Positions 978 through 9,513 of a stretch of DNA of 64,000 nucleotides are shown piece by piece. Below the pieces are notes generated by a model. That model saw only the letters and a list, made by a program, of their open reading frames with translations. It was not told the DNA's origin and did no database searches. Positions within the stretch are counted from its first letter, which is position 1; the number at the start of each line of letters is the position of its first letter. The position numbers were made by a program, and so were the translations under genes. Origin of the DNA: Pseudolabrys sp. (lineage in GTDB: Bacteria > Pseudomonadota > Alphaproteobacteria > Rhizobiales > Xanthobacteraceae); contig JADGGK010000009.1 of NCBI GenBank assembly GCA_019689975.1, forward strand, positions 1 to 64,000. Direction: 5' to 3'.

Positions 978-1390
978 CGGCCTCGTCAGGCGCGACAGAG
1001 GATTTCGCCGCTGCCCAGCGCGGACTGCGCGCCGGTCGCAGCGACGCTTGCGACACCGGTGAGCACGAGCGACTCGCCGCGCGGCCTCGGGCGAGGAAGC
1101 GATGCCGGGTCGTCGGACCGCCGCCGCGGCAGCGCCCGACGATCCGCTTCGGCGCTGCCTGCCCTGCGGATTGACGGTCCCGCTTCCGCGGCGCGGAACA
1201 TGACCCGAGTTAAGCGGGCGTCCCATCAAAATCACGGGGAGCAGGCCCGGAAAGCGGTTTGTCGATCGTGGTTGTCCGATGCCGCGTAAGCTTGCCATCA
1301 TCCGCAGCGTCGAATAAGTATCCGGATGGTTACTTGTCCCGCCGGCTCCGCCGCAGCCGCGCGGATCTCCAATCAGGTTCATGCTCGCGA
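978..1390. other. Intergenic region with TetR-type operator copy 1
   Basis: This 413-bp stretch has no convincing gene. A coupled ATG at 974 opens a 66-codon frame rich in Arg and Gly that resembles no family I know; it could be the start of a decayed gene. The right part holds a TTGCCA -35-like hexamer (1292-1297) and the palindromic operator at 1316-1335, so it is probably the promoter region of the SDR-GNAT pair. Confidence 0.5.
1316..1335. promoter_or_regulatory. TetR-family operator, copy 1
   Basis: AAGTATCC-GGAT-GGTTACTT is an inverted repeat with 8-bp arms and one mismatch. It matches the palindromes at 4419-4438 and 5168-5187. It lies 55 bp before the SDR start codon and 18 bp after a TTGCCA hexamer. 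The regulator is inferred to be the TetR protein encoded at 4458-5123. Confidence 0.7.
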
Positions 1391-2428
1391 ATGACGTCTT
1401 TGATCAGACCGCTGCCGCCCCGCTTTGCCGACGAGGACGAGCTCGACGATTTCATGACCACGCCGTCGCCGGTTCTGGCCGGCGACCTGGAAACGGTCTC
1501 CGGCGACATATTGGTTCTCGGCGTCGGCGGGAAAATGGGGCCGACCTTGGCGCGTCTCGCCAAACGGGCCGCGCCGCGGAAACGCGTCATCGGCGTCGCC
1601 CGCTTCAGCGAGCCGGGGCTGCGGGAGAAACTGCAATCCTGGAATATAGAATGCATCGGCGCCGACCTGCTCGACCGCGATGCCGTTGCCAGGCTCCCGC
1701 AAGCGGAGAACGTGATCTTCATGGCCGGACGCAAATTCGGAACCGGCGGCCGGGAGGACCTGACATGGGCCATGAACACCTACGTGCCGGCCGTGGTGGC
1801 GGAGACATTCAGGAGCTCGCGCATCGTGGTGTTCTCGACCGGAAACGTCTACGCCCATGTCAACGTCTTGCATGGCGGCGCGACTGAGACCGCGCCGCTC
1901 GACCCGCCCGGGGCCTATGCCAACTCGTGTGTCGGTCGCGAACGCATATTCGAATTCTTTTCGCGAAAGCACGGCACGGCCGGCCGCATCATTCGCCTCA
2001 ATTACGCGATCGACATGCGCTATGGCGTGCTTCACGACGTGGCGCAGAAGGTATTTTCCGAGGCGCCGATCGACCTCGCCGCGGGACATGTCAACGTCAT
2101 CTGGCAGGGCGACGCGAACAGCATGGTGCTGCGCGCGCTTGCTCATTGTACCCGACCGATGTCTCCCCTCAATGTCAGCGGACCGGAGACGATCAGCATC
2201 CGAAGCCTCGCGCAGATGTTCGGAAGGCGCTTCGGCAAGGAACCGCGCTTCATCGGGACGGAAGCCGCGACCGGTTGGCTCGTGAACTGCGCGGAGGCGT
2301 TTCGGTTGTTCGGATATCCGAGCGTCCCCTTGGCCGTCATGGTGGACTGGGTCGCCGACTGGATCGAACGCGGAATGCGCAGCCTTGGCAAGGCGACCCA
2401 TTACGACAGCCGCGATGGATCCTTTTGA
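1391..2428 (+). CDS. NAD-dependent epimerase/dehydratase family protein (extended SDR)
   Basis: A 345-aa extended short-chain dehydrogenase/reductase. The Rossmann glycine motif LGVGGKMG is at residues 43-50, and the active-site Ser is in VFSTGN (S149). The catalytic Tyr is in GAYANSC (Y176), but the Lys expected four residues later is Cys (C180), so the classical Y-x-x-x-K pair is broken. The protein probably binds NAD(P) and acts on a sugar-like or hydroxy-acid substrate, unless it has become a binding protein. The ATG at 1391 was chosen because it follows operator 1 and the upstream residues look non-coding; ATG 1454 is an alternative. The stop overlaps the GNAT start by 14 bp, so the two are probably co-transcribed as part of the TetR-controlled module. 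Confidence 0.8.
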
Positions 2429-3320
2429 GAAGTCCACGCATGAAATTCCGGCCGCGGGTCTTCCGGAAGGACTGTCGGCCCGCGCCCTGCGGCGCAACGA
2501 TCTCGACCAGGCAATCTTGCTCTCACAAGAGGCTGGCTGGAACCAGCTCCCTGCCGATTGGGAGATCTTTATGGAGCTCGGCCTGGCCATCGCCGTGCTC
2601 GACGGAGACCGCATCGTCGCCACGGCGGCCATGCTGCCTTACGGTGGTCGCTTTGCCTGGATCAGCATGGTGCTGGTGACGGCGGCCTATCGCCGTCGCG
2701 GCCTTGCCAGCTGGCTGCTCCGGTATTGCGTCGCACGGCTGGTGCATGACGGCCTCGTTCCGGTACTCGATGCCACGCCGGCCGGCCGCGAGGTCTACCT
2801 CCGGTTGGGATTTCGCGACGCCTGGGCCATGCACCGGCTCGTGCTTGAACGGCGGCATGACCGCCCCTCGTTCGATTGCCCGCACGATGTCGCGGTTCGC
2901 CCGCTCACGCATTCCGACTGGCCGGCGATCGTCGCCTATGACGGCGCCGTCTTCGGCGCCGAGCGGGAGCGTCTGCTGCGCGGTCTGGCTCGCCGCCTCC
3001 CGCACGCAGCATTGGTGGCCGAACGCGCCGGTCGCATGAGCGGGTTTCTCCTCGGCCGCGACGGCCGCCGGATGACCCAGATCGGACCGCTCTGCGCCGA
3101 CGACGTCGCCGTCGCGCGCGCGTTGCTCGCACACGCCTTGGCCGATCTGGCCCCGCCGCTTGCCGTCGACCTGCCCGATCGTCATCACGCGCTCGGCGCG
3201 TGGCTCTCGGAACTCGGTTTCAGGGCGGAGCGGCCGCTGACGCGCATGGTCCATCAACGCCCAGCCGCGTTCGACGACACCGCCCGCCTATTCGCGGTCG
3301 CCGGCCCGGAACTCGGCTGA
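2415..3320 (+). CDS. GNAT family N-acetyltransferase with two GNAT-like domains
   Basis: A 301-aa protein. The first half is a GNAT fold with the acetyl-CoA pyrophosphate loop [10 protein letters not shown] (about residues 93-102) after a beta strand WISMVLV. The second half (about 155-295) resembles the YitH-type C-terminal GNAT domain ([23 protein letters not shown]). It likely transfers an acetyl group to a small-molecule amine or related group; the substrate is unknown. The start overlaps the end of the SDR gene, which indicates translational coupling. It converges with the ABC binding-protein gene, only 9 bp from that gene's stop. In this module it may modify or detoxify the imported compound, which is inference. 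Confidence 0.8.
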
Positions 3321-3329
3321 GCGCGCGGT

Positions 3330-4340
3330 TCAGCCCTTGAACTCAACGGCCTTCATCTTGATCGATTTGTCGAGAAATTCGTTGGTGAAATGTTGTTTGA
3401 TATCAAACGGTTTCTGAATTCCCACATAATTCTTCACAAGCTCGTAGTCATTTTCCATGCGCTTCGGATCGAACCAGCCGAGGGCCACGGTCTGCGAGGT
3501 GTGGTCGCTCATCAACTGCTCGACTTCGTGCCAATTGATCATCTGATCGTCGAATTTGAGCCCGGAATTGGCGTCGACGAGCGCCTGAATGCAGGGCTTG
3601 GGATCGGCAACGCAGGCCGCAAAGGCCTTCTGCGTCACCTTGACGAAAGCCGCAATCGCCTCCTTGTGGGACTTCAAATATGCGCCGTTGACGACGATGG
3701 AATTGCCGTAGGGATTGAGGCCGGCGTCCTTCCAGGCGAGATAGCCCATATTGTCGCCGAGCTCGCGTTTGTAGCCATGGTGAAGGTTGAAGAATTCGGT
3801 CACCACGTCGACCGCACCGGATTTGAGCGATGCCAGCTTGGCGTTGGGGCTGACATTGACCCAGGTCACGGAATTGGGATCCATGCCATTGGCCTTGGCG
3901 AGCGCCGGCCAGAGAGCGCGCGCGGCGTCCCCGGGAGGATTGCCGATTTTCTTGCCCGCCATATCCTTGACCGAGCGAATTCCCGAGCTCTTGAGCCAAT
4001 AGAATCCGCCGGGATAATTGGCATAAACATTCATCACGGCGACTTCGTCGGCGCCCTTGCCGATCGCCACGAGAACCGTCGTCAGGTCCGCGAGCCCGAC
4101 CTGGTTGATGCCGGCCCCGGTACGTTGGGCCGCATTGGACGAACCCGAACCCTGGATCAGATTAACGTCGAGACCAGCCTGGGCATACCAGCCCTGTGCG
4201 CGCGCGAAGTAATACGGCGCGTGATCGCCGCCAGCGACCCAGTTGAGAATGAAATCGAGCTTCTCCGTTGCCAGCGCCATGCCCGCATGGCCTAGGACAA
4301 CCATCACTGCCATCGCTATAATCTTCATCGCGCGGATCAT
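3330..4340 (-). CDS. ABC transporter substrate-binding protein, NMT1/THI5-TauA type
   Basis: A 336-aa periplasmic binding protein. Met at 4340 is followed by a signal peptide ending near GMALA/TEKLDF, with ATG 4328 as alternative start. The mature part begins LDFILNWVAGGDHAPYYFARAQGWY, typical of NitT/TauT/THI5-like binding proteins, and continues with conserved segments such as MAGKKIGNPPGDAAR. It should deliver a small organic ligand (sulfonate, pyrimidine or aromatic-like; not predictable) to the permease and ATPase at 6362-7890. It is transcribed divergently from the TetR gene. Operator copy 2 lies in the shared 117-bp promoter region, inside the spacer of a possible minus-strand promoter with TTGGCA at 4443-4438. 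Confidence 0.9.
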   Translation of the reverse strand: MIRAMKIIAMAVMVVLGHAGMALATEKLDFILNWVAGGDHAPYYFARAQGWYAQAGLDVNLIQGSGSSNAAQRTGAGINQVGLADLTTVLVAIGKGADEVAVMNVYANYPGGFYWLKSSGIRSVKDMAGKKIGNPPGDAARALWPALAKANGMDPNSVTWVNVSPNAKLASLKSGAVDVVTEFFNLHHGYKRELGDNMGYLAWKDAGLNPYGNSIVVNGAYLKSHKEAIAAFVKVTQKAFAACVADPKPCIQALVDANSGLKFDDQMINWHEVEQLMSDHTSQTVALGWFDPKRMENDYELVKNYVGIQKPFDIKQHFTNEFLDKSIKMKAVEFKG

Positions 4341-4418
4341 GGGCCTGCTCCAGCGATCGCCTGCCGATCGATACCTCACACGGGGAAACGCCGGGACGTT
4401 CCCGCCGTGATTGAAATC

Positions 4419-4438
4419 TTGTAACCAGATGGTCACTT
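4419..4438. promoter_or_regulatory. TetR-family operator, copy 2, in the divergent tetR/binding-protein promoter
   Basis: TTGTAACC-AGAT-GGTCACTT has the same palindrome architecture as the copies at 1316 and 5168. It lies between the start of the binding protein (4340, minus) and the start of tetR (4458, plus), so one bound dimer could regulate both, including tetR itself. A TTGAAA hexamer at 4411-4416 abuts it on the plus strand. Confidence 0.7.
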
Positions 4439-4457
4439 GCCAACGATAGGGAGCGGC

Positions 4458-5123
4458 ATGAGAGGTGTCAACGCACGTTTTGGCGCACGAAATGCACCGG
4501 TCCTTCGCAAAAAGCGACAACCGGTCCTAACCCGCCGCCGCATCCTGCTCGCAGCCACGGCAGAGTTTGCCGCCAACGGTCTCGCCGGGGCCCGGGTCGA
4601 CGCGATCGCCTCCCGAGCCGGAGTCAGCAAGCGGATGCTCTACCATTACTTCGGGAACAAGGAAGCGCTCTGGCTGGCGGTCCTCGAGCAGGCTTACAGC
4701 GATATTCGCGGCGAGGAGCGGCAACTCGATGTTCAGCGGCTTACGCCGCGCGAGGGGATGCGGCGACTGATCGAATTCAGCATCCGCTACTGCGCCGAAC
4801 ATCCCGAATTCGTCGCTCTTCTCATCGGAGAGAACCTCCATCGCGCGAAATACCTGCGCCGATCGACCCGCGTGCGCGAACTGCATACGTCGCTTCTCGG
4901 TCTCATCGACGATCTGCTCAAGCGCGGGCGGCGCGCGGGCGTGTTCCGAGATGGGGTCGATCCCGCCGAGCTCTACATCTCCATCGCCGCGCTCGGTTTC
5001 TTCTACTTCTCCAATATTCACACGCTTTCGACGATCTTCGGCCGACGGCTGAATTCGCTTGAGGCACGCAAGCGGCATCTCAAGCATTCGACCGAGGTAA
5101 TTCTCGGCTACCTGAGACCGTGA
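4458..5123 (+). CDS. TetR/AcrR family transcriptional regulator
   Basis: A 221-aa TetR regulator. The N-terminal HTH domain (about residues 22-68) is canonical: RRRILLAATAEFAANGLAGARVDAIASRAGVSKRMLYHYFGNKEAL. The C-terminal helical ligand and dimer domain (LTPREGMRRLIEFSIRYCAEHPEFVALLIGEN...) gives no clear ligand. The ATG at 4458 follows a purine-rich ATAGGGAG; a TTG at 4437 would lie inside the operator and is unlikely. It sits at the centre of the ABC/SDR/DapA/FAD cluster, and three matching palindromes surround its targets. It probably represses this cluster and itself, with the imported compound or a metabolite as inducer (inference). Confidence 0.9.
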   Translation: MRGVNARFGARNAPVLRKKRQPVLTRRRILLAATAEFAANGLAGARVDAIASRAGVSKRMLYHYFGNKEALWLAVLEQAYSDIRGEERQLDVQRLTPREGMRRLIEFSIRYCAEHPEFVALLIGENLHRAKYLRRSTRVRELHTSLLGLIDDLLKRGRRAGVFRDGVDPAELYISIAALGFFYFSNIHTLSTIFGRRLNSLEARKRHLKHSTEVILGYLRP

Positions 5124-5140
5124 AAGCGCGCCGCCCGGGG

Positions 5141-5146
5141 TTGACA
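5141..5146 (+). promoter_or_regulatory. Candidate -35 element (TTGACA) of the dapA-like operon
   Basis: A perfect TTGACA is followed, 17 bp downstream, by a weak AGAAAT -10 candidate (5164-5169). Operator copy 3 begins at 5168 and would cover the -10 and the start site, which fits repression by occlusion. Confidence 0.45.
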
Positions 5147-5167
5147 GTTTCGGCCGGCCAAGGAGAA

Positions 5168-5187
5168 ATGTAACCATGTAGTTACTT
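5168..5187. promoter_or_regulatory. TetR-family operator, copy 3, before the dapA-like operon
   Basis: ATGTAACC-ATGT-AGTTACTT contains the symmetric core GTAAC-N6-GTTAC. It lies 12 bp before the dapA-like ATG (5200) and directly after a TTGACA/AGAAAT promoter candidate. It shares the TGTAACC and ACTTG edges with copy 2. Confidence 0.75.
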
Positions 5188-5199
5188 GCGAGATTTGCC

Positions 5200-6261
5200 A
5201 TGGCGCTCACACCGGCCGATTGGCCGCCGGAACTGCGGGAGACGCTGCGTCGCGGCACCGTCATTCCGGCGCATCTCTTGGCGCTGAACGAACGGCGACA
5301 ACTCGATGTCGCGCGGCAACGCGCGCTTTCGCGCTATTACCTTGACGCAGGTGCCGGCGGACTTGCGGTAGGCGTCCATTCCACGCAGTTCGCGATCCGC
5401 GAGGCGGGGCTGTACGAACCTGTGCTCAGACTGGCGGCGCGGACGGTTCAGGAATGGGTAAAATCACCTCGATTGCTGATCGCCGGGTTGGTCGGCGACA
5501 CGGCCGCGGCACTACGCGAAGCGGAGCTCGCCGTCGATCTCGGTTATCACGCCGGTCTCCTGAGCCTCGCGGCCATGCGCGGGGCGAGCGAGGATGATCT
5601 CATCGCCCATTGCCGGGCGGTGGCGAAAGTGATCCCGCTGGTGGGATTCTATCTGCAGCCGGCCGTCGGCGGCATCGACCTGCCGACGAGTTTCTGGCGC
5701 CGGTTTGCCGAAATCGAGACGGTCGTCGCGATCAAGATTGCACCCTTCAGCCGCTACCGCACTCTCGACGTCGTGCGGGGCGTGGTCGCCGCGCGCGCCG
5801 AAAACCGTATAACGCTCTACACCGGGAACGACGATTCGATCGTTTTCGATCTCGTCGCGCCCTTTGTGCTGCGGAGGGGCGACTCCGAGGTCACGCTCCG
5901 CATCAAGGGCGGCCTTCTCGGTCATTGGAGCGTCTGGACGAGCACGGCCGTCTCGCTGCTGAGCCGCATTCAAACGGCCGTCGCCGCGGGACGAATCGAT
6001 CAGGATCTTCTGGCCCTGGCCGGCAAGATCACCGATTGCAACAGCGCGTTTTTTGACGCGGCGCACAACTTCCGCGGTTGCATCGCCGGTTGCCACGAGG
6101 TGCTGCGTCGCCAGGGATTAATGGCGGGAACCTGGTGTCTGGACCCGCACGAAACATTGAGCCCCGGCCAGGCGGAAGAAATCGATCGTGTCATCCGCGA
6201 CTATCCTGAGCTCGCCGACGACGCGTTCGTCAATGCCAACCTGGAGCGTTGGCTGTCATGA
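5200..6261 (+). CDS. Dihydrodipicolinate synthase (DapA/NAL) family aldolase or lyase
   Basis: A 353-aa class I Schiff-base aldolase of the DapA/N-acetylneuraminate lyase superfamily. The barrel shows GAGGLAVGVHSTQF near residue 52, the Tyr-bearing strand VGFYLQPAVGG (about 148), and the Schiff-base Lys in VVAIKIAPFSRYR (about 178). It is longer than DapA (about 290 aa), with an extra C-terminal helical stretch. It is therefore probably not the lysine-pathway enzyme but a catabolic relative that cleaves or dehydrates a 2-oxo acid or sugar acid. It is first in a run with the ABC permease, the ATPase and the FAD oxidoreductase, and operator 3 stands directly before its start. Confidence 0.8.
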   Translation: MALTPADWPPELRETLRRGTVIPAHLLALNERRQLDVARQRALSRYYLDAGAGGLAVGVHSTQFAIREAGLYEPVLRLAARTVQEWVKSPRLLIAGLVGDTAAALREAELAVDLGYHAGLLSLAAMRGASEDDLIAHCRAVAKVIPLVGFYLQPAVGGIDLPTSFWRRFAEIETVVAIKIAPFSRYRTLDVVRGVVAARAENRITLYTGNDDSIVFDLVAPFVLRRGDSEVTLRIKGGLLGHWSVWTSTAVSLLSRIQTAVAAGRIDQDLLALAGKITDCNSAFFDAAHNFRGCIAGCHEVLRRQGLMAGTWCLDPHETLSPGQAEEIDRVIRDYPELADDAFVNANLERWLS

Positions 6262-6361: not shown

Positions 6362-7123
6362 ATGGCCGCCGAAAAGCTCCGTCACTATGCCTTGGGCGTG
6401 CTCGTCCATGTGGTGGTGATCGCGATCTGGTGGGCTTTCGTGGAGCTCGGTCACATCGAGCCCTACATCATGCCGTCGCCCCTGGCGACGCTGAAAACGC
6501 TGGGCGGCGAGAATTACCGCTGGATCGCCAATGCCACGGTGACGGCGGGAGAGATTTTCGGCGGCTATCTGCTCGCAGTGATCGTTGGCGTTACGCTGGC
6601 GACCGCCTTTTCCTGGTCGCGTCCCGTCGAATCGGCGGTCATGCCGCTGCTCGTGACCTTGAACATGATTCCCAAGGTTGCGCTCGGGCCGCTTTTCATC
6701 GTCTGGTTTTCCTATGGAATCTTCCCCAATGCCGTCATTGCGTTTTCCATCAGCTTCTTTCCCATCTTGCTCACAACCGCGCGCGGATTGCGCGAGGTCG
6801 AGCCGGATCTGCTTGACCTCGTGCGCTCGCTGCGCGGCTCGCGCTGGCAACTGTTCACGAAAATACAACTGCCCGGCGCCCTCCCCTATCTCTTCTCGGG
6901 AATGAAGGTCGGCGCAATCCTCGCGGTCGCCGGCGCCATCGTCGGGGAATTTCTCGGTTCCTCGCGCGGCCTCGGCTATCTGATGCTCCAGGTCCAAGTC
7001 ACGCTCGATACCGCCGCGATGTTCATGGCCGTCGTTCTGATCACCCTTATCGGCGTGTTTCTTTACGGCCTGGTTCTGCTGCTCGAGCGCCTGATCGTCG
7101 TGCGCGATGCCCGGGTACAATGA
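6362..7123 (+). CDS. ABC transporter permease, SsuC/TauC/NitT type
   Basis: A 253-aa inner-membrane protein with about six hydrophobic segments and the BPD_transp_1 EAA-loop region (RSLRGSRWQLFTKIQLPGALPYLFSGMKVG, about residues 156-185) that contacts the ATPase. The N-terminus HYALGVLVHVVVIAIWWAF is the first transmembrane helix. It is probably the partner of the NMT1/TauA-type binding protein at 3330-4340. It follows the dapA-like gene by 100 bp, and its TGA overlaps the ATG of the ATPase gene (ATGA), a sign of translational coupling. Confidence 0.92.
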   Translation: MAAEKLRHYALGVLVHVVVIAIWWAFVELGHIEPYIMPSPLATLKTLGGENYRWIANATVTAGEIFGGYLLAVIVGVTLATAFSWSRPVESAVMPLLVTLNMIPKVALGPLFIVWFSYGIFPNAVIAFSISFFPILLTTARGLREVEPDLLDLVRSLRGSRWQLFTKIQLPGALPYLFSGMKVGAILAVAGAIVGEFLGSSRGLGYLMLQVQVTLDTAAMFMAVVLITLIGVFLYGLVLLLERLIVVRDARVQ

Positions 7124-7890
7124 CGATGAACGAGCCGTTCATTCACTTGACCAAGGTACGCAAGGTTTATCGCAAGAAAGATGCGGAATTTGTTGCGCTG
7201 TCCGACGTGACCTTCGACGTGGCGGCCGGCGAATTCGTCTCTTTGGTCGGCCCGTCCGGTTGCGGAAAGACGACATTGCTGAAGATTCTTGCCGGATTGC
7301 TGCCGCATGACGGCGGCGAGGTTCGCCTCGGGTCGGCGGCACATTCGTTCGATCCGTCACGCGACATCGGCATGGTGTTTCAACAGCCTCTGCTGCTCAA
7401 GTGGCGGCGCGTCATGGAAAATGTCCTGCTGCCGGCGGAGATCCTCGGGTTGCCATTGCGAGAAAGCCGTGAACGCGCGCGCGAGCTTCTCAGCATGGTC
7501 GGACTCGCCGAGGTCTCCGACAAGTATCCCTACGAGCTTTCCGGCGGCATGCAGCAGCGTGCGGCGATTGCGCGTGCCTTGATTCATGACCCCAAGCTCA
7601 TCTTGATGGACGAACCATTCGGCGCCCTCGATGCATTGACACGCGAGAAGATGAATCTTGAGCTGCGCAATATCTGGCAGACGAGCGGCAAGACCATCGT
7701 TTTCGTCACTCACGGCATTTCCGAAGCGGTGTTCCTCGGCACGCGCGTGGTGGTGCTGACGTCGGGGCCGGCGCGCATGGCCGACGACATTCCGATCGCG
7801 TTGCCGGACAAGCGGACGCTTGAAATTAAGACCTCCAGGGAGTTCGGCGACTACAATCGGCGCGTCTATCGCCTCCTCGGAATGGAATAG
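7120..7890 (+). CDS. ABC transporter ATP-binding protein, SsuB/TauB/NitT type
   Basis: A 256-aa ATPase with Walker A GPSGCGKTTLL (residues about 46-56), a Q-loop MVFQQPLLLKWRR, the signature ELSGGMQQRAAIARAL, Walker B LILMDEPFGALDALTR, and the switch His in VFVTHGISEAVFLG. It energises uptake of the unknown ligand together with the permease it overlaps by 4 bp. ATG 7126 is a possible second start. The C-terminal tail (ALPDKRTLEIKTSREFGDYNRRVYRLLGME) is typical of nitrate/sulfonate-type importer ATPases. Confidence 0.93.
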   Translation: MTMNEPFIHLTKVRKVYRKKDAEFVALSDVTFDVAAGEFVSLVGPSGCGKTTLLKILAGLLPHDGGEVRLGSAAHSFDPSRDIGMVFQQPLLLKWRRVMENVLLPAEILGLPLRESRERARELLSMVGLAEVSDKYPYELSGGMQQRAAIARALIHDPKLILMDEPFGALDALTREKMNLELRNIWQTSGKTIVFVTHGISEAVFLGTRVVVLTSGPARMADDIPIALPDKRTLEIKTSREFGDYNRRVYRLLGME

Positions 7891-7905
7891 CGCCGGCAGG
7901 TGGAA

Positions 7906-9513
7906 ATGGACAGGATCTACGACGCCATCATCCTCGGCGCAGGCCACAACGGCCTCATCCTGCAGGCCTATCTCGGCAAAGCGGGCCTCAAAACCATCGC
8001 CATAGAGCGCAAAAGCGTCGCCGGGGGCGGCCTGTGCACGATCGAAGACCCGCGTCATCCCGGTTTTCTGCACAATACGCACGCGTTCTTCCAACGTGCG
8101 ATCACGACCATGCCGTGGTATGCGGATCTCGCGCTCGAGCGCCATGGCGTGCGCTACATCGAGCCCGAACTCAACGTCGCATTGCTGACGCGCGACGGGG
8201 AAGCGCTCGAATGGTGGACGGATGTCGAGCGCACCATCGCATCGTTCGCGGAATTCAGCCGCCGCGATGCGGCGACGCTGCGCCGCTGGCATGACGAATT
8301 CGTGCCGATCGTGCGATCGATCCTCGGTCCGGAAGGACGTTCGCCGCCTTTGTCCCCGGCAGAAAGGCGACGTCTTCTTTCGCGCAGCCATGCCGGGCAA
8401 CGCTTGCTCGAGACGAGCGAGTTGTCACCGCTTGAATTCGTCGAACGGGAATTCGAACATCCGCTGATCAAGGCCGGGCTGCTGTTCTTCAACGGCCTGC
8501 GCGAAGTCGATTTGCGCGTGCGCGGATTCGGACATCATATCGCCGCCTTGCTCGCAAGCCCCGCCAAGGCGCAGATGTCGCGCGGCGGCTCCGCCGCTCT
8601 GGCACGCGCGTTGGAAGCCGCCGTCCGCGAAAGCGGGGGCGTGATCAGGCTGATGACCGAGCCGGCTCGCATCGTGGTGGAGAACGGTCGCGCCGTCGGA
8701 ATCGAAACCAAGGACGGGGAATCGATCGGCGCGCGGCATCTGGTGGCCTCCTCGCTCAATCCCCATCAGACCTTTCTCGAACTCCTCGACGCCGAATTCG
8801 TGCCGCACGCCCTGCGGCAAATGGTCGAAGCCTTTCAATACAACCTGTTGGCTCCCTTGTTCGCGCTTCATCTGGTGCTGCGCGAACCGCCGCGGTATCG
8901 GGCGGCAGAGACACGACCGGAGCTTGCCAAGGCCTTCATGGTCATCCTGGGCCTCGATCACGTAGAGCAGTTTCATGACATCGTGCGGCACCATGAGGCC
9001 GGTACCATCCCGCCGACCGTGATGTGGGGCGCCTGTCCCACCTTGTTCGACGCCACCCAGGCCCCGCCCGGCGGTCATACCGCCTTCATGTGGGAGAAGC
9101 TGCCCTATCGGCTCCACGGCGACGCAACCCGCTGGGATTCGATGCGCGAACAGCACGGTCGCGCGATGCTCGCGTTGTGGCAGAGTCACGCGCCCAATCT
9201 CGAGGCGGCGGTCGTCGACGTCTTCACGCGCTCGCCGCTCGATACGGAACGCTCGCTGCCGAACATGCGCCAGGGCGATCTGCTCGTGGGTGCCTTCTCC
9301 AACGGCCAGATAGGCTACAATCGGCCTTTTCCCGGTTACGGAAATTATCGCACCCACATTCCGGGCCTTTATTTGTGCGGATCGAGCACTCACCCCGGGG
9401 GCAACATCACCGGCCTTCCGGCCTACAATGCAGCGCAGGTGATTCTCGGCGATCTCGGGATCAAGGCGGAATGGATGCCCCCGCCGATCGCGCAGCAATG
9501 GGCCGATCTCTGA
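7906..9513 (+). CDS. FAD-dependent oxidoreductase, phytoene desaturase/PYROXD2-like
   Basis: A 535-aa flavoprotein. The N-terminal dinucleotide motif IILGAGHNGLILQAYLGKAG with IERK about 20 residues on fits an FAD-binding Rossmann fold. The C-terminus LYLCGSSTHPGGNITGLPAYNAAQVIL is the CrtI/PYROXD2-type FAD-closing motif. It likely oxidises C-C or C-N bonds of a small organic molecule; the gene context gives no carotenoid role. GTG 7900 is an alternative start two codons upstream. It starts 15 bp after the ATPase stop and ends the plus-strand run, so it is probably the oxidation step for the compound taken up by the ABC system (inference). Confidence 0.85.
   Translation: MDRIYDAIILGAGHNGLILQAYLGKAGLKTIAIERKSVAGGGLCTIEDPRHPGFLHNTHAFFQRAITTMPWYADLALERHGVRYIEPELNVALLTRDGEALEWWTDVERTIASFAEFSRRDAATLRRWHDEFVPIVRSILGPEGRSPPLSPAERRRLLSRSHAGQRLLETSELSPLEFVEREFEHPLIKAGLLFFNGLREVDLRVRGFGHHIAALLASPAKAQMSRGGSAALARALEAAVRESGGVIRLMTEPARIVVENGRAVGIETKDGESIGARHLVASSLNPHQTFLELLDAEFVPHALRQMVEAFQYNLLAPLFALHLVLREPPRYRAAETRPELAKAFMVILGLDHVEQFHDIVRHHEAGTIPPTVMWGACPTLFDATQAPPGGHTAFMWEKLPYRLHGDATRWDSMREQHGRAMLALWQSHAPNLEAAVVDVFTRSPLDTERSLPNMRQGDLLVGAFSNGQIGYNRPFPGYGNYRTHIPGLYLCGSSTHPGGNITGLPAYNAAQVILGDLGIKAEWMPPPIAQQWADL

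Follow-up and report, generated by a model that had tools for sequence, protein, structure and literature searches.

Bacteria encode very large numbers of TetR-family regulators, whose operators are difficult to infer from sequence data. We analysed a 64-kb stretch of DNA from Pseudolabrys sp. (positions 1 to 64,000 of contig JADGGK010000009.1; hereafter the window) that carries, near its start, a tetR gene within a module encoding an NMT1-type ABC importer and a set of enzymes. A first-pass annotation had proposed that three matching palindromes define a TetR regulon spanning this module. The genes of the module, the palindromes and the promoter-like elements beside them are as follows (SBP, substrate-binding protein).

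1292-1297, plus strand: -35-like hexamer TTGCCA upstream of copy 1
1316-1335: candidate operator copy 1, AAGTATCCGGATGGTTACTT, before the SDR-GNAT genes; 1 mismatch to AAGTAACC-N4-GGTTACTT
1391-2428, plus strand: SDR / NAD-dependent epimerase-dehydratase family protein, 345 aa (PF01370; synteny)
2415-3320, plus strand: GNAT acetyltransferase with two GNAT domains (domain search)
3330-4340, minus strand, ATG at 4340: NMT1/THI5-like ABC SBP (PF09084, 1.6e-44, 152.9 bits against a cut-off of 20.5)
4419-4438: candidate operator copy 2, TTGTAACCAGATGGTCACTT, in the divergent SBP/tetR promoter region; 3 mismatches
4443-4471, minus strand: promoter-like TTGACA-N17-TATCGT for the SBP gene (10/12 matches, a consensus match only); copy 2 lies 4 nt downstream
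4458-5123, plus strand: tetR, TetR-family regulator, 221 aa, TetR_N + TetR_C_29 (domain search; AlphaFold2)
5141-5146, plus strand: -35-like hexamer TTGACA upstream of copy 3
5168-5187: candidate operator copy 3, ATGTAACCATGTAGTTACTT, before the dapA-like operon; 2 mismatches
5200-6261, plus strand: DapA-like protein, DHDPS/NAL superfamily, 353 aa (PF00701)
6362-7123, plus strand: ABC transporter permease (PF00528)
7120-7890, plus strand: ABC transporter ATPase (PF00005)
7900-9513, plus strand: FAD-dependent oxidoreductase, CrtO/CrtI-like, presumed last gene of the dapA-like operon (profile searches; orthologues)

Searching both strands of the window for AAGTAACC-N4-GGTTACTT with up to three mismatches returned exactly three matches, those listed above, compared with a mean of 0.02 matches in 100 dinucleotide shuffles (at most one per shuffle, and never three). 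The palindromes are therefore where the first-pass annotation had placed them, and its impression by eye that the window holds no other good copy was correct. Each copy also lies just upstream of a start codon of the module, as described: copy 1 is 55 nt from the SDR ATG (1391), copy 2 falls between the divergent SBP and tetR (ATG at 4458) genes, and copy 3 is 12 nt from the dapA-like ATG (5200), with tetR itself between copies 2 and 3.

Across the whole host genome (3,574,772 bp in 201 contigs) the same pattern at up to three mismatches occurred in one additional place, C24:34744, as against three for the reversed control. This candidate was rejected because its core is broken. A search with the core alone, GTAACC-N4-GGTTAC, at up to one mismatch yielded the three window sites and C47:7874, which was set aside as asymmetrical and located at the predicted start of a histidine-kinase gene; at up to two mismatches only background was recovered genome-wide (24 places versus 88 for the reversed control). 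We see no other convincing copy of the operator in the 3.57-Mb host genome. A 16S gene was also looked for in this assembly, with no match.

With regard to promoters, the best promoter-like site beside any operator is TTGACA-N17-TATCGT of the SBP gene, which had been missed in the first-pass annotation. The -35-like hexamers that it had reported before copies 1 and 3 are present (TTGCCA at 1292 and TTGACA at 5141), but neither is among the sites listed by a sigma-70 scan, which returned 4 sites where shuffles gave 1.0. Copy 3, said to overlap the -10/start region, reaches into the presumed -10 at 5164-5169, a weak match identified by eye, and stops short of the start codon.

To assess conservation we used 83 related loci, the window not counted: 79 with tetR homologues in named genome contigs and 4 plasmid loci with a DapA-like gene. 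Exact GTAACC-N4-GGTTAC was found 23 times in 22 of these loci (179 permuted arms: mean 0.1, maximum 3), and allowing one mismatch gave 74 matches in 47 loci (permuted arms: mean 2.5, maximum 21). Since the loci are related, these counts are not independent draws. For individual genes, we scored sites with at most one core mismatch within 250 bp upstream in the 29 loci with an SDR or DapA orthologue. Such sites preceded SDR in 6/25 cases, SBP in 5/12, TetR in 5/29 (the same five loci as the SBP sites), DapA in 8/26 and ATPase in 1/11, and none preceded Perm (0/12), GNAT (0/19) or FAD (0/3); with the 179 permuted arms the mean was at most 0.03 per gene, single arms reaching up to 4. The sites are thus kept before the SDR, SBP/TetR and DapA genes of related genomes above the permuted arms, albeit in part of the loci only.

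Alignment of individual copies gave a similar picture. All three copies are present in L020, from a metagenome-assembled genome of Xanthobacteraceae; L005 and L006, which are the most closely related to the window (78% and 68% tetR identity), have copies 1 and 2. In copy 1 (window, L005, L006 and L020) the arms are invariant and the spacer and flanks vary; in copy 2 (the same loci and L015) the arms are nearly invariant and the spacers free, the window alone reading GGTCAC where the other four loci read GGTTAC. In some loci where SDR lies deeper in its cluster, a site stands before an upstream gene instead, a Gfo/Idh gene in L016 and L018 and a TctC transporter gene in L022. Several of these results weigh against the regulon: at two mismatches the motif is not exceptional (134 matches, rank 8 of 180 arms), per-gene conservation is partial, and copy 3 is absent from both L005 and L006, the TTGACA of its promoter being still recognisable in L005.

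Two features of the copy 1 region deserve mention in their own right. The left arm of copy 1 reads GTATCC rather than GTAACC in all four aligned SDR-upstream sites, and because it is conserved in this way the deviation may be selected, perhaps via overlap with a -10 element. In L005 (4618-5700) and L006 (4679-5686) a MetE-like (Meth_synt_2) gene on the minus strand is divergent from SDR and shares the copy 1 promoter region, for which reason it may belong to the regulon in these two loci.

The product of tetR is a TetR/AcrR-family protein: TetR_N (PF00440) matches residues 29-75 with 55 bits against a cut-off of 24, and TetR_C_29 (PF17938) matches at 3.2e-41. Its AlphaFold2 model (10 helices, mean pLDDT 94) has the all-helical fold with a recognition helix, predicted at residues 58-65 and including Arg59, and the listed PDB matches of the model are TetR-family or related regulators. 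A palindromic operator beside the regulator's own gene, conserved together with it, was found in part of the loci. The best-scoring NCBIfam model, ScbR (NF041196), gave 58.8 bits, below its equivalog cut-off of 150. The host also encodes a 44% identical TetR paralogue at C111:11946-12563 (L138), near a sugar-nucleotide epimerase-like gene; no GTAAC-type site at up to two mismatches was found in the 8.9 kb fetched there.

Conservation supports the palindromes as a TetR regulon of the uptake/catabolic module, but regulator and operator also occur apart from it. The nearest tetR homologues from the same genus (55-60% identity) are not beside a DapA-like gene. Rather, in L152 and L157, the operator separates tetR from a downstream Gfo/Idh-DUF993 pair or from the Gfo/Idh gene of that pair, and L157 has a second site flanked by an NMT1 ABC operon and a mandelate-racemase-like/xylose-isomerase-like pair, with second sites of this kind in eight other same-genus loci. 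Among 22 same-genus tetR loci, taken from the tetR matches with a recovered locus, exact GTAAC-N6-GTTAC was present in 15/15 with identity of at least about 55% and in 0/7 with identity below 50%. On pSymB of Sinorhizobium meliloti the order is tetR - operator - Gfo/Idh - DHDPS-family/DUF993 - mandelate racemase - isomerase, and genes of both sets occur together in L234, L238, L239, L240, L241 and L242. Few members of the genus have the DapA-like gene: at E 1e-60 it was found only in the host and G032 among 36 same-genus genomes including the host. Gene calls in part of the loci (e.g. L152, L157, L244 and the whole-locus counts) come from a simple open reading frame picker.

The host has a Gfo/Idh-DUF993-xylose-isomerase-like operon of its own, at C123:20341-21492 (L244), adjoining polysaccharide-synthesis genes. 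The operon of its congeners carries a GTAAC operator; in the host no site at up to two core mismatches was found in the 20 kb fetched, and we therefore rejected this operon as a member of the host regulon.

Module loci of other lineages have a different operator, paired with a different recognition helix. The first lead came from the regulators of L053, L061, L084, L086 and L087 (with the module) and L054 (without it), which read NKQ rather than NKR in the recognition helix; these loci have no GTAAC site, and several carry TCAAC-type palindromes beside tetR. We therefore surveyed residue 59 in 174 tetR loci, earlier and newly fetched, scoring exact sites within 450 bp of tetR; five duplicate loci were removed beforehand, and the near-duplicates that remain were collapsed separately at 90% identity. 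GTAAC...GTTAC was present in 72/145 Arg59 loci and TCAAC...GTTGA in 0, whereas 16/20 Gln59 loci had TCAAC and 0 had GTAAC. Three of the four Gln59 misses have a one-mismatch TC site; the fourth, L132, has none, and is a long-branch regulator with helix NVQM that we counted as a miss. Other outer pairs were found among Arg59 loci (TT 4, AT 1) and not among Gln59 loci. Collapsing left 47/103 Arg59 loci with GT and 8/12 Gln59 loci with TC.

The same pairing was seen in data gathered later and over longer stretches of DNA. Among loci fetched after the idea had formed, 12/13 Gln59 loci had TC, and Arg59 loci had GT in 22/41 cases and TC in 0; a later batch of six comprised two Gln59 loci, both with TC, three Arg59 loci in which no site was found, and one Ser59 locus likewise lacking one. 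Scanned over their full length, the 74 Arg59 loci that reach 7 kb (1.24 Mb) contained 69 GT sites in 58 loci, 0 TC and 0 CT, and the 16 Gln59 loci of that size (0.276 Mb) contained 19 TC sites in 13 loci, 0 GT and 0 CT. Regulators of both types, Arg59 and Gln59, coexist in three genomes, where each locus has only its matching operator: G032 (L116 and L279), G632 (L233 and L280) and G717 (L235 and L281). G032, a congener of the host, has its DapA-like module (DapA 62%, FAD 71%, ATPase 70%) with a Gln59 regulator and TCAAC operators, as opposed to Arg59 with GTAAC in the host.

For other residues the numbers are smaller. Ala59 regulators (n=6) tend, on weaker grounds, to go with CTAAC: CTAAC...GTTAG was found in L048, L062, L085 and L275 (the L130 locus taken with more surrounding DNA) and, if one outer mismatch is allowed, in L033, and L057 had no CT-type site (best, 3 mismatches). 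Loci with Ser59 (L274), Thr59 (L129, L131) and Gly59 (L184) had none of the GT, TC and CT types.

The link between residue 59 and operator is a well-supported correlation across these sequences. We slightly favour the broader view that the identity of residue 59 (Arg, Gln or Ala) dictates which outer bases the operator has (GT, TC or CT), such that paralogous regulators would coexist without cross-talk and the same module would pass between codes with its operators rewritten to match. Several findings count against it. An exact site within 450 bp of tetR is lacking in 73 of the 145 Arg59 loci. The Ala59-CT pairing rests on 5/6 loci, three of them close Nitratireductor relatives; in 4/5 (all but L033) the site is kilobases from tetR, and the letters in L033 and L275 can also be read as a perfect TAACTAA-N4-TTAGTTA in shifted register. 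Gln59 regulators, apart from L132, form one clade (98/87) in a tree built from 147 of the 174 sequences after removal of short ones and of redundancy at 97%, and still do so (97/85) with helix columns 59-61 removed, in a tree of 73 rows made up of 54 hand-chosen of the 145 Arg59, 16 Gln59 (with L279-L281 added, but without L132 and six near-copies) and 3 of the 6 Ala59 sequences. Finally, when residues 20-89 are compared, an almost complete separation of the groups is also seen at 24, 29 and 61.

The single Gln59 clade implies that Arg-to-Gln was one event and that other linked residues could matter; since the change arose once, causation by residue 59 can only be suggested. The correlation might accordingly reflect shared ancestry alone, with residue 59 a passenger of other changes such as those at 24, 29 and 61. 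We regard this as possible but on balance unlikely, for Gln59 regulators without Val61 are still paired with TC-type sites (L165, with Leu61, has a one-mismatch TC site, and L279, with Ile61, has two exact ones), and Ala59 regulators occupy two positions on the tree, each accompanied by CT-type sites, subject to the caveats on Ala59 given above. Residue 60 is Leu in some GT-type regulators, and a possible link between it and the sixth operator base was examined in small numbers.

Building on the computed sites, their conservation, the synteny and the correlation between residue and operator, we consider it very probable that the window holds a complete local regulon: an autoregulated TetR-family repressor with three operators, controlling an NMT1-type ABC importer and an SDR/GNAT/DapA-like/FAD module. 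We infer that a TetR dimer would bind three copies of a 16-20 bp operator, (A/T)2-GTAACC-N4-GGTTAC-(A/T)2, at or just below the presumed -10 of the SDR-GNAT, SBP/tetR and dapA-permease-ATPase-FAD promoters, and would thereby block transcription of all three units, its own gene included. A small-molecule ligand, probably the imported substrate or an intermediate, would release TetR. The NMT1-type transporter would take up the compound, which would then be degraded by a dehydrogenase/class-I-aldolase route, to which other genomes may add Gfo/Idh/MocA, DUF993, xylose-isomerase-like and mandelate-racemase-like enzymes. In this regulator family, residue 59 apparently determines the two outermost bases of the operator, GT with Arg, TC with Gln and probably CT with Ala.

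TetR on these operators might instead act as an activator or mixed regulator rather than as a simple repressor. Both plus-strand promoters are weak sigma-70 matches that the scan did not list, but a position at or below the presumed -10 is generally known as a repressing one. Most characterised members of the TetR family are repressors, and we judge an activating role improbable. It is less probable again that a different regulator binds the palindromes, the neighbouring tetR being a bystander. TetR binding is a prediction, but the motif accompanies tetR in different neighbourhoods (the DapA module and the Gfo/Idh-DUF993 module) and differs according to the residue in the recognition helix of the adjoining tetR. 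It is hardly credible that the palindromes arose by chance or are structural inverted repeats (terminators or hairpins): palindromes as such are common here, the first 11 kb holding 84 inverted repeats with arms of 8, a gap of 4 and up to two arm mismatches, but shared sequence, position, conservation and the permuted-arm control all contradict this account.

What the repressor would control can be described in part. The SBP belongs to the NMT1/THI5-like ABC binding proteins, scoring above the PF09084 cut-off; its structural relatives, such as 4nmy, THI5 chains and 3ix1, are remote sequence matches only. The DapA-like protein belongs to the NAL/DHDPS superfamily (PF00701, and a fold match to NanA/DHDPS at 15-23% identity), and 0 NCBIfam families matched it at E <=0.001, so that it does not qualify as a genuine DapA (dihydrodipicolinate synthase). 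Lys179 and Tyr151 are invariant in 21/21 sequences and by analogy would be the Schiff-base catalytic residues; together with the fold they make a pyruvate-type retro-aldol or dehydration step plausible. The nearest solved relatives of the SBP and the DapA-like enzyme are too remote to indicate a substrate. The recurrence of Gfo/Idh, isomerase-like and racemase-like genes as neighbours points to an imported compound that may be sugar-derived or cyclitol-like. Orthologues of the FAD oxidoreductase (69-77% identity) share a locus with the module in L006, L020, L029 and L279.

Directly 5' of the module, at 24-977 on the plus strand, lies a gene for a MutS-domain-V ATPase-like protein (PF00488) that scores far under the MutS1 and MutS2 equivalog cut-offs and whose true start may precede the window. 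DapA-like/SDR pairs also occur on the actinobacterial plasmids L088 and L089, with LacI- or IclR-family regulators nearby.

Here genome comparison gives a regulator, its candidate operators and its targets. Natural Arg59, Gln59 and Ala59 regulators with mutually exclusive operators make a single-residue specificity hypothesis directly testable, and the set should be useful for orthogonal genetic switches. The regulon also provides a handle on a catabolic route (NMT1 importer, SDR, GNAT, DapA-like, Gfo/Idh and DUF993) that recurs in Pseudomonadota and of which no description was found in the literature searched.

Among known systems, the nearest named fold is RutR (TIGR03613), with RutR chains at Foldseek ranks 1-5 (6z1b, 4jyk, 3loc, 4xk4 and 4x1e). 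RutR regulates pyrimidine utilisation and has an operator that likewise contains an ACC-N4-GGT centre, a likeness for which the literature search gave no confirmation. The window TetR shares about 27% identity with RutR, has other target genes and, at 55.7 bits, falls below the equivalog cut-off of 368. It has the TetR_C_29 (PF17938) domain in common with other regulators, and in the open-access literature searched we found no described TetR_C_29 member with this operator, no specificity code for a TetR subfamily and no description of this regulator, operator and module, one query being of low power because most of its matches were to terms like tetracycline. Local TetR regulons are already known as a kind of system; the new part is the residue-operator code. 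In the MerR and IclR families, residues of the DNA-binding domain are reported to correlate with bases of the binding site (PMC5045206, PMC8222616), a relation of the same kind as ours in families other than TetR. Another precedent is the LacI-family recognition code, which was likewise derived from local regulation across genomes and expressed as residue-base rules (Camas et al. 2010, PMC2978694); in that code two residues specify two bases, whereas in the TetR subfamily described here one residue seemingly sets the two outer bases.

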